DNA of 64,000 nt from Nodosilinea sp. P-1105 (GTDB lineage Bacteria; Cyanobacteriota; Cyanobacteriia; Phormidesmidales; Phormidesmidaceae). The stretch is taken from contig NZ_SMDQ01000028.1 of assembly GCF_012911975.1 (NCBI RefSeq), positions 1 to 64,000 of the forward strand, in the 5' to 3' direction. Positions 36,362 through 39,866 of this stretch are shown here, piece by piece. How positions within the stretch are numbered: position 1 is the stretch's first letter; every line of letters starts with the position of its first letter. Under the pieces are notes generated by a model. The model did no database searches. It saw only the letters and a program-made list of their open reading frames with translations, and was not told the origin of the DNA. The position numbers and the translations under genes are program-made.

Positions 36362-38884
36362 ATGACTGTATCGGAACGCGTCACGTTTTTACAGGAGCGC
36401 ACCCCCCTGAGTGTCTTGAGCCCTGAGAGCTTGAGCGCGATCGCTGACAGCATGGAGACCTGCTCCATTGCGCCCCAGGAGATGATAGTAGAAGCCGGGC
36501 AGGAGCCAGCCGGGTTGTATATCCTCTGGGAGGGCAAGCTGGAAACTGTGGAAACCGGTATGGGGGGAGTGAGTTTCTTGCCGGGTACGGTGATTAACTT
36601 AGAAGCCCTGCTGCTGAGTCAGCCGGTGGAACAAACTATCCATGCCCTCTGCGATAGTACAGTCTGGTTCATTGGCCGCGATCGCGTCCAGCAGATCTTA
36701 GACACCCATCCAGATATTTTGCAGACCTTTACCCGCCAGCTGGTGGAAACCGTCAAACGGCTGTCGTTTCAGGTCAACTATGAACAAGAGCGTCAGACTG
36801 TGCTGCGCCCTTACCTGGTCACCCGGGCCAAGCGGGGGGTGATTGGCCGCAGTCGCTATGGGGATCGACTGCGATCGCAGCTGCGGGAAGCGGGCCACCA
36901 TCGTCGTCCGGTTCGGATTTTTGGAGAACCAGGGCTGGAAAAAGATAACCTGGCCGCCTTGATCCATTACGGCTCGGAGCAGCGCCGCCAACCGATCATC
37001 AAACTCGACTGTTCCAAGCTCCAGGCTAGCGGAGCTGACCTATTTGGTCGAGCCGGAGGCAAACCCGGTCTGATCGAAGCCCTGGGGCAGGGAACCCTGG
37101 TGCTAAACAACCCTGGCGAACTGGATGAAGACCTGATAGACCCAATCGTTCGATTGCTAAGAGACCGGGAGTACCAGCCGGTAGGACGCAATGGCACCAC
37201 CGTCCCACCCGTAAAGGCCCAGGCCCGGATTATTTTAATTTCAGAACAGGCCGTACCAGCCCTTGATAATCTAGTCAGCGACACCATCAAGGTACCCCCC
37301 TTGCGGGTCCGCAAGGCTGATTTAGAAGACTGGGTCAATTACTACCTGTCGCTGATTTGTCGGCGTCGGGGCATCGACCGCATCCAGGTGACCCCAGAGG
37401 CGATTCGCCGGTTACAATCCTATGACTTTCCCAACAACCTGCGAGAACTGGAAAACCTGGTGGAGCGCGCTACCGCCCAAATGGCTGGCGGCGGCCTGAT
37501 CACCGAGGAAATTATCTGGCCATCCCAAAGTAAGAAAAAGCAGTTTCGGTTGAACCTGCTGAATCGCTACCCTGGTCTGCGGCGGTTTCTGCGTAGCCCC
37601 TGGTGGCCCGATCGGCTCAATTATGGAATCACCCTGACTCTGTTTGCGCTGGTGGTGGGCGTGCTGTGGGTGGGGCCCCAGACCCGCCACCAGAATGTGG
37701 CCTTGACGGTGTTTTGGGCCTGGTGGTGGCCCCTGATCTTGGTGGGATTCCCCTTTGTGGGGCGGCTGTGGTGTGCTGTTTGCCCGTTTATGATCTACGG
37801 GGAGGTGACTCAAAAACTACGCCAGCGATGGTTTCCCGGACAGCTTAAACCCTGGCCCCGACGAGCGGCAGAACGCTGGGGAGGCTGGTTCTTATTTGGT
37901 CTATTTGTGCTGATTCTGGTGTGGGAAGAGGTGTGGGATTTAGAAAATACCGCCTACCTATCCGCCTGTCTGCTACTCCTGATTACCGCCGGGGCGATGA
38001 TTTTCTCGGCCCTGTTTGAGCGGCGATTTTGGTGTCGTTACCTGTGCCCCATCGGCGGCATGAATGGCATGTTTGCCAAGCTCTCGATCACCGAGTTGCG
38101 AGCCCAGCAGGGTACCTGCTCCGCCGAATGTACCACCTATCAATGCTATAAGGGCGGTCCCCAAAAAGGAGAAGGCCAGGAAACCAATGGCTGTCCCCTC
38201 TACTCCCATCCGGCCCAGTTGGAAGATAACCGCGACTGTGTGCTCTGTATGACCTGCCTCAAAGCCTGCCCCCATCGTTCGGTAGAGTTTAACCTACGCC
38301 CCCCCGGTATTGAACTGTGGACCACCCACCAGCCCCGCTCCTATGAAATCGCCTTAATGTTTCTGCTGTTGGGAGCCGTGTACCTGCGTCGCTTGCCCGA
38401 GCTGCAGCAGCGCCTGCACCTGCAGCTCCCTCTAGATACGGCCCTCCACCACAGCCTGGTGTCCTTCGGTATCTTGGCCCTACCGGCCCTGCTGCCCCTA
38501 ACGGTGGAAGCAGTGGGCTGGCTCTGGCAGCAAGGGCGATCGCGGTCCCAACCCCACTCCTTTGTCAAACTGGCCTATGGCTATCTACCTCTGGTGTGGG
38601 CGGCCAACCTAGCCCACTATCTCCGCCTAGGTCTATTGGAGGGAGGACGGGTTTTGCCAGTCTCTTTGGCCACCTTTGGGGCATCAGGGGCAAATCTGCC
38701 GGTTTGGGTGGCCCACCCCGCAGTGGTAGCCTTTCTACAGGGGGTGACCCTGCTTATGGGCATCGGGTTATCAATTTGGCTGACCCAGAAAATTGCCCGC
38801 CAACCCCTGGTCTATCGGCTGGCTAATCACAGTTGTACCGTGTTGCTGGGGGCCAGCCTATGGTGGATTGTGGTCGGGCTTTAG
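36362..38884 (+). CDS. Fusion protein: cNMP-binding domain + degenerate sigma-54-activator-type AAA+ + NosR/NapH-like membrane 4Fe-4S polyferredoxin
   Basis: cNMP-like N-terminus; KLDCSKLQASGADLFGRAGGKPGLIEALGQGTLVLNNPGEL...LRDREYQPVGRNG...PNNLRELENLVERA; then TM region with WCAVCPF, WCRYLCPIGG, CVLCMTCLKACPHRSVEF. Confidence 0.9.
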   Translation: MTVSERVTFLQERTPLSVLSPESLSAIADSMETCSIAPQEMIVEAGQEPAGLYILWEGKLETVETGMGGVSFLPGTVINLEALLLSQPVEQTIHALCDSTVWFIGRDRVQQILDTHPDILQTFTRQLVETVKRLSFQVNYEQERQTVLRPYLVTRAKRGVIGRSRYGDRLRSQLREAGHHRRPVRIFGEPGLEKDNLAALIHYGSEQRRQPIIKLDCSKLQASGADLFGRAGGKPGLIEALGQGTLVLNNPGELDEDLIDPIVRLLRDREYQPVGRNGTTVPPVKAQARIILISEQAVPALDNLVSDTIKVPPLRVRKADLEDWVNYYLSLICRRRGIDRIQVTPEAIRRLQSYDFPNNLRELENLVERATAQMAGGGLITEEIIWPSQSKKKQFRLNLLNRYPGLRRFLRSPWWPDRLNYGITLTLFALVVGVLWVGPQTRHQNVALTVFWAWWWPLILVGFPFVGRLWCAVCPFMIYGEVTQKLRQRWFPGQLKPWPRRAAERWGGWFLFGLFVLILVWEEVWDLENTAYLSACLLLLITAGAMIFSALFERRFWCRYLCPIGGMNGMFAKLSITELRAQQGTCSAECTTYQCYKGGPQKGEGQETNGCPLYSHPAQLEDNRDCVLCMTCLKACPHRSVEFNLRPPGIELWTTHQPRSYEIALMFLLLGAVYLRRLPELQQRLHLQLPLDTALHHSLVSFGILALPALLPLTVEAVGWLWQQGRSRSQPHSFVKLAYGYLPLVWAANLAHYLRLGLLEGGRVLPVSLATFGASGANLPVWVAHPAVVAFLQGVTLLMGIGLSIWLTQKIARQPLVYRLANHSCTVLLGASLWWIVVGL

Positions 38885-39002
38885 AACCAGTATGTAAAGT
38901 TTTCACCAAGCACCTACATTTGGGACCTCAGCCAACATTGTCTTGGCGTCTGAGTCTGTTAGATTACCACCACCGCCTGAATTAATCTTCACTGGTTGTC
39001 CC

Positions 39003-39866
39003 ATGCTCCAGGATAGTTCGCTGGACTTTAAGCTTGTTCAACGGGTCTGTTTACTACAGCATGCCCTGGACCAGGCTATGGAGACGCTGGAAGAGATGCA
39101 GCAGCAGGTGGCTAATCACCAAATGCTGCAAGCTCACTTGGCCCAGACGGAAGAATATGCCAACGTGCAGCAAAAGATCATTATTAACCTACAGCGACAA
39201 TTGCAGGGCAAGGACCAGTGGCAGCAACAGATGGTCAGCCAACTCCTGGTTGAGGTCAGAGCCCTGGTCACCGATCAACAGTTAGAGCTAGAACGGCTGC
39301 GGGTCAGAATTTACCAAAGCCAGGCGGAAGTACAAGACTACCTGGTGCGGTTGAAAAATCACTACCAAACCCTTTCCATCAGTTTCACTCCTGATCAAGA
39401 GCAGGACTTGAATTCAGAGGTGATGATTGTCCGGGCGCTGACGGTCAGCCTCAGCAGCCAGTTACAGGCCGCCCAGCAGCACATCCAACAGCTAGACAGT
39501 ACCCTGACCAAATATCAGGTGACCTTTGCTCGCCTGCACGCTCAAGTCAACCAGGGGCCCCCTCTAGAGACTAGTTTCCACAGCCCCACCCCTGATGGGC
39601 ATCAACCAGAACCGGCCCTAACGGCGATCGCCGATGACCCCATTGCCCTGCGGGCCATCGTGGAAGCCCAAAAACAAAAAATCGACGAACTCACCGACGA
39701 GCTAAGCTACCAGTTTCGCCAGCAGACCAGTCTCAAATATCGCTGTCAAGAAATCGCCGCCGAGCGCGATCGCCTGAGGCAGCAAGCGATCGTCCTAAAG
39801 CTAGAAAATGAGGCCCTGCAAGAACAAGTGATCCCCCAGAACTGGCTAATGGATTCGACGTCGTAG
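39003..39866 (+). CDS. Coiled-coil hypothetical protein
   Basis: Gln-rich long heptad-like helices; ATG at 39003. Confidence 0.6.
   Translation: MLQDSSLDFKLVQRVCLLQHALDQAMETLEEMQQQVANHQMLQAHLAQTEEYANVQQKIIINLQRQLQGKDQWQQQMVSQLLVEVRALVTDQQLELERLRVRIYQSQAEVQDYLVRLKNHYQTLSISFTPDQEQDLNSEVMIVRALTVSLSSQLQAAQQHIQQLDSTLTKYQVTFARLHAQVNQGPPLETSFHSPTPDGHQPEPALTAIADDPIALRAIVEAQKQKIDELTDELSYQFRQQTSLKYRCQEIAAERDRLRQQAIVLKLENEALQEQVIPQNWLMDSTS

Follow-up and report, generated by a model that had tools for sequence, protein, structure and literature searches.

A CRP-like domain, an NtrC-class AAA+ domain and a NapH-like membrane Fe-S module joined in one conserved cyanobacterial protein

A single 840-codon frame opening with ATG was found on the forward strand of the window, the whole 64,000-nucleotide stretch of Nodosilinea sp. 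P-1105 DNA that was analysed (Table 1). From N- to C-terminus its product consists of a CRP-like (cNMP) fold, an NtrC-type AAA+ domain and a NapH-like Fe-S membrane module. All Pfam matches within the ORF exceeded the curated cut-offs, among them PF00027, PF00158 and PF12801, the three families expected from the fusion proposed in a preliminary description of this DNA. An AlphaFold2 model of the full protein, built with 59 homologues, had a mean pLDDT of 77.8. Directly downstream in the window (38943-39866) lies a gene for a coiled-coil protein, which is kept near the fusion gene in 13 other loci, all apparently from the window's own group. TldD/PmbA genes also adjoin the window gene, yet they are not among its recurrent neighbours. 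A short scan upstream of the gene gave no convincing Zur or CRP boxes.

Table 1. Features of the fusion gene, with window positions, strand and supporting evidence.
Feature	Position	Strand	Evidence
Whole ORF, 840 aa: cNMP-like / pseudo-bEBP AAA+ / NapH-like membrane Fe-S protein (clade A)	36362..38884	+	ORF call, Pfam, homologues
CRP-like domain with a cNMP-binding fold (residues 35-116) and no conserved cyclic-nucleotide signature	36464..36709	+	PF00027 E 3.6e-11; alignment
Long helix joining CRP-like and AAA+ domains, residues 118-151	36713..36814	+	AlphaFold2 secondary structure
NtrC-class AAA+ core, residues 161-295	36842..37246	+	PF00158 E 2.3e-11; Foldseek
GEPGLEKDN, a variant Walker A (residues 188-196) whose Lys194 never varies in the clade A alignment	36923..36949	+	Alignment
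Stretch at the expected GAFTGA loop; loop deleted	37037..37081	+	Pairwise alignment with NifA and PspF
GTLVLNN at the Walker B site, without its acidic residues	37091..37111	+	Alignment
AAA+ lid (AAA_lid_14), residues 315-390; preceding arginine-finger segment deleted	37304..37531	+	PF25601 E 2.3e-12
Membrane Fe-S module of NapH-like type (residues 396-840) with about nine TM helices	37547..38881	+	NCBIfam TIGR02163 E 6.7e-15; AlphaFold2; charge pattern
WCAVCP motif, residues 470-475 (C471, C474)	37769..37786	+	Cysteines invariant in clades A, B, C and Deinococcus
WCRYLCP motif, residues 557-563 (C558, C562)	38030..38050	+	Cysteines invariant
C586, C590, C595, C611, C626, C629, C632, C636; probable two [4Fe-4S] clusters	38117..38272	+	Invariant
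C-terminal helices past the NapH-like part; E760 conserved	38339..38878	+	Alignment, AlphaFold2, Deinococcus stand-alone protein

The protein family falls into three clades, designated A (which includes the window gene), B and C. In a tree of the membrane module clade B had a support of 1.0 and stood apart from A (0.79) and C, and the branching order of the three was left unresolved by this tree. Matches to the gene came from 49 of the 59 related genomes, usually in a single full-length frame, and relatives with 72-77% identity bear the names Nodosilinea, Leptolyngbya and Phormidium. A domain scan of the clade A alignment found the full domain set, in one frame each, in all 59 members, and the conservation of the gene is far beyond chance. 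A sequencing or frame-fusion artefact uniting separate genes, one of two outcomes by which the preliminary description considered that its proposal could fail, would be in keeping with the few relatives that are frameshift-split at differing places (clade B and C copies L042, L156 and L148, probably pseudogenes or sequence errors). Since all 59 aligned relatives share the architecture within intact single frames, and since each of the three clades keeps the AAA+ domain joined to the membrane module, members that have lost the cNMP domain included, we rejected this explanation, to which we assign a minute probability. The triple-domain ORF is thus genuine.

The distribution of the AAA+ domain was surveyed in 292 genomes across the phylum using PF00158 (Sigma54_activat) at E ≤ 1e-9. 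Within the photosynthetic class this yielded 67 matches from 62 genomes, every one of which (67/67) lay inside this protein family, making it the sole sigma-54-activator-like AAA+ domain detected in the sampled photosynthetic cyanobacteria at that threshold, which clade C, through its divergence, does not reach. Synechococcus elongatus likewise gives a PF00158 match at this threshold. When a second sample of the class was searched with a clade B query, 216 of 291 genomes matched (E ≤ 0.001), most of them very strongly; the protein is wholly absent from some lineages. Genomes of the same phylum outside the photosynthetic class also gave strong PF00158 matches of 145-240 bits (e.g. G157 contig 1:127803-129032, G184 contig 5 and G094 contig 42), and a single 660-aa frame among them holds two of these AAA+ domains. 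A 202-aa ORF in one cyanobacterial genome (L243:1915-2523; G175 contig 1, about 411956-412339) matched the RpoN DNA-binding domain with 62 bits, over the cut-off; it is a lone C-terminal piece of RpoN in a phylum from which sigma-54 is said to be missing.

The assignment of the central domain to the NtrC class of bacterial enhancer-binding proteins (bEBPs), as first proposed, was borne out by its PF00158 and lid matches and by Foldseek searches with the AlphaFold2-predicted head, for which the best PDB matches were NtrX (E 5e-13), FlrC, NtrC1 and PspF. Alignment with NifA and PspF located deletions of both the arginine-finger segment and the GAFTGA loop, and GAFTGA, already reported as missing from the window gene, was found in none of the 63 family sequences checked (41 from clade A, 17 from B and 5 from C). 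At Walker B, LNN replaces LDE, with the NN almost always present in clade A. The Walker A motif had been described as degraded, which is correct insofar as it takes a variant form; however, its lysine is retained, being invariant in both the 59-member clade A alignment and the wider 63-sequence alignment, and the variant is itself conserved, GEPGLEKD being the form in 35 of the 41 sequences from clade A and in all 5 from clade C. The clade B Walker A is near-canonical, G[TSG]GK[TI]. The clearer losses are those of the Walker B acids, the arginine finger and GAFTGA. An invariant Walker A lysine amid these lost motifs suggests that the head binds nucleotide without hydrolysing it, and no power stroke would be expected because the Walker B acids and arginine finger are gone.

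As the preliminary description had also noted, the protein does not end in a DNA-binding domain: no Pfam match to a C-terminal HTH or other DNA-binding domain was obtained in the ORF, in which the membrane module follows the lid. Nor does the genome contain rpoN (no PF04552 match), whose presence was the other outcome named as refuting the proposal; cyanobacteria are reported to be without sigma-54 (PMC3162934). With no rpoN in the genome and no GAFTGA in the protein, a role as sigma-54 activator was rejected, and the earlier suggestion that its AAA+ domain has been repurposed away from sigma-54 activation and attached to an Fe-S membrane unit is supported. A Spirosoma match considered as an ancestor of the cNMP-AAA+ combination was discarded, being a receiver-GAF bEBP with an HTH.

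The N-terminal fold was recognised by PF00027 in 59 of 59 members of the clade A alignment, confirming the cNMP-binding-like fold that had been proposed. The phosphate-binding Glu/Arg signature is not conserved in clades A and B, at positions where the alignment is approximate. The domain is absent from clade C and has been lost at least three separate times within clade A (L149/L150, L151 and L152), which marks it as an optional add-on. With the signature unconserved and the domain repeatedly lost, the further suggestion of a ligand-sensing N-terminus is not supported as far as cyclic nucleotides are concerned.

The membrane module contains the WCAVCP and WCRYLCP motifs together with CVLCMTCLKACP (residues 626-637), exactly as initially described, and PF12801 (Fer4_5) matches at the membrane cysteine motifs (E 6.6e-8). 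The match to TIGR02163 (NapH/MauN) spans profile positions 76-254 of 255, at a score of 55 bits that is far below the NCBIfam cut-off of 213 bits; the CcoG family model was not among the NCBIfam matches listed for the module. All 12 cysteines of the module are retained without exception in clades A (41/41), B (17/17) and C (5/5) as well as in a stand-alone '4Fe-4S binding protein' of Deinococcus ficus, WP_027463891.1, which aligns over nearly the whole module with 32% identity and 12 of 12 cysteines. The gene upstream of the Deinococcus protein, considered as a separate head, showed no similarity. In the C-terminal helices H752 is mostly conserved and is not retained in clade C. Predicted topology and loop charges would place the head and all of the cysteines on the same, cytoplasmic side of the membrane. 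Modelled alone, the module had a pLDDT of 74 and a pTM of 0.75, with low confidence (pLDDT <50) in the cluster-binding stretch, and a structure search with the predicted module gave no convincing solved structure resembling it.

Gene neighbourhoods were compared among the clades. Clade A genes showed no conserved neighbours beyond the window's own group, no recurrent metal-related neighbours and no linked NapG-type partner or terminal reductase; nap genes, including NapG, likewise did not turn up among the clustered recurrent neighbours, of which a part was annotated. A cysteine synthase A gene exceeding the TIGR01139 cut-off lies directly downstream on the same strand, often less than 50 bases away, in 28 of 39 distinct clade B loci (a raw count in which shared ancestry is included), compared with none of 126 clade A loci, many of which had only 1.5 kb of flank. 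The surroundings of clade B further include psbA, Rieske PetC, rhodanese, DsrE, a YgaP-like TM protein, ArsR, cydB, hemN and FeoB, and, more weakly matched, proteins resembling sulfide quinone reductase and persulfide dioxygenase. Several of the neighbour annotations are based on below-cut-off matches. Clade B belongs to sulfide/low-oxygen gene sets, and a linkage of sqr, arsR-type genes and psbA variants has been reported in cyanobacteria (PMC5061849). One gene near clade B, considered as a heme oxygenase, proved to be an aldehyde deformylating oxygenase. On plasmids of Aulosira laxa (L133) and Pseudanabaena galeata (L134) the clade B gene occurs together with cysteine synthase, Rieske PetC and psbA, the P. 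galeata set also having DsrE and rhodanese genes; these sets are possibly mobile sulfide/low-oxygen photosynthesis islands.

Clade C derives from a small-genome family and appears to be marine-Synechococcus-like, judging in part from the match of its neighbouring Zur to the WH8102 protein 7NE9 (E 8.8e-66). In one genus (L146, L163-L165) the clade C gene sits between an upstream SDR gene and zur, from which 8-35 bases separate it, and in another (L147, L166-L168) it adjoins znuB/znuC, encoding a zinc ABC transporter; this adjacency is confined to the two genera. ArsR-type regulators are found near some genes of clades A, B and C, and genes for P-type ATPases and for a metal regulator occur close to that of a distant haloarchaeal relative.

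Our tentative interpretation, held with somewhat less than even confidence, is that of a NapH-type quinone-linked membrane electron-transfer protein carrying a pseudo-AAA+ regulatory or scaffold head. NapH has been reported to be a menaquinol oxidiser (PMC3475470), and by analogy the membrane module would shuttle electrons between quinone and its own clusters, probably exchanging them with the quinone pool via two [4Fe-4S] clusters on the cytoplasmic side. The head would be a former sigma-54-activator AAA+ domain that no longer acts on sigma-54, probably cannot hydrolyse ATP and may still bind nucleotide; positioned directly before the first helix on the cluster side, it most likely oligomerises as a scaffold for the Fe-S module or regulates it in response to nucleotide, and the CRP-like domain would supply an additional, dispensable input. 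Clade B is seemingly the version for sulfide and low oxygen, beside its own cysteine synthase. More specifically, a single sigma-54-activator descendant may have been kept as a dead, nucleotide-reading ring gating quinone-linked electron flow according to nucleotide state, with a sulfide/low-oxygen copy, a possible but doubtful elaboration. The sub-cut-off NapH score, the lack of a linked clade A partner, of conserved clade A neighbours or of a structural match, the low model confidence in the cluster-binding stretch, and the clade C context of two genera, which favours zinc over quinones, count against the quinone reading.

Other functions were weighed against the same evidence. The Fe-S module could instead read the plastoquinone or cytoplasmic redox state and relay it, by way of the AAA+ and CRP-like domains, to a second protein, so that electron transfer would be no more than the sensing step. 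The origin of the head domains in transcriptional regulators, the ArsR-type regulators near some genes of each clade and the redox sensing required by the clade B gene sets would all agree with such a sensor, yet it would have no DNA-binding or kinase output domain and an often-lost CRP-like input domain, and the retention of 12 cysteines and an entire large membrane module seems beyond a sensor's needs, making this fairly unlikely. AAA+ domains of the NtrC class form rings, and the long helix at residues 118-151 could dimerise in the predicted structure, so that the head might act solely in building a membrane redox complex (e.g. one used under anoxia), as its chaperone or scaffold, and take no part in electron flow. 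We feel that this is very unlikely given the loss of the Walker B acids and arginine finger, which leaves no expected power stroke, and a cysteine conservation that favours redox chemistry.

A metal reductase or metal-handling helper resembling CcoG, with a head coupling activity to energy or metal state, is suggested by the zur and zinc-transporter neighbours of clade C, by the P-type ATPases and metal regulator near the haloarchaeal relative, and by CcoG itself, a cupric reductase with similar cysteine motifs that reduces Cu(II) (PMC8267372). Zinc, however, is not redox-active, the zinc link is restricted to two clade C genera, clade A has no recurrent metal neighbours and the CcoG model is missing from the listed matches; this function is decidedly unlikely.

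Members of the family were met in databases under names such as 'nitrogen assimilation regulatory protein' and 'cyclic nucleotide-binding domain-containing protein', and annotation as a nitrogen or sigma-54 regulator is misleading. Full-text literature searches, with subscription papers outside their coverage, found no published study of the protein. An invariant Fe-S membrane core with an unusual regulatory head is conserved over much of the photosynthetic phylum, widely enough that it looks like a real, unstudied part of the cyanobacterial redox machinery. Should it exchange electrons with the plastoquinone pool, the protein would fill a gap in cyanobacterial redox control, to which clade B would add a player in growth under sulfide. 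The head also clearly exemplifies how a transcription motor can be put to use away from transcription.

Among known systems, bEBPs such as NtrC, NifA and PspF (PF00158) resemble the protein in the sequence and predicted fold of the AAA+ core and lid, whereas the protein described here is without GAFTGA, the arginine finger, the Walker B acids, a DNA-binding domain and a genomic sigma-54. TyrR, DhaR and VpsR are soluble DNA-binding regulators. They likewise have an NtrC-class AAA+ domain without an intact GAFTGA (PMC3162934), but the present protein has no DNA-binding domain and is membrane-bound. CRP-type cNMP receptors share the fold of the N-terminal domain and differ by their conserved phosphate-binding Glu/Arg signature. 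CcoG (FixG/RdxA) is also a membrane protein with ferredoxin-like cysteine motifs (PMC8267372), unlike ours in the head and C-terminal part. With NapH/MauN (TIGR02163) the protein has in common two CxxCP/CxxxCP motifs and a two-cluster cysteine region, although its first motif is CxxCP rather than the CxxxCP of NapH, and it has about five additional C-terminal helices and a 395-residue cytoplasmic head. The Deinococcus ficus protein WP_027463891.1 corresponds to nearly the whole membrane module and has neither the cNMP nor the AAA+ part of that head.
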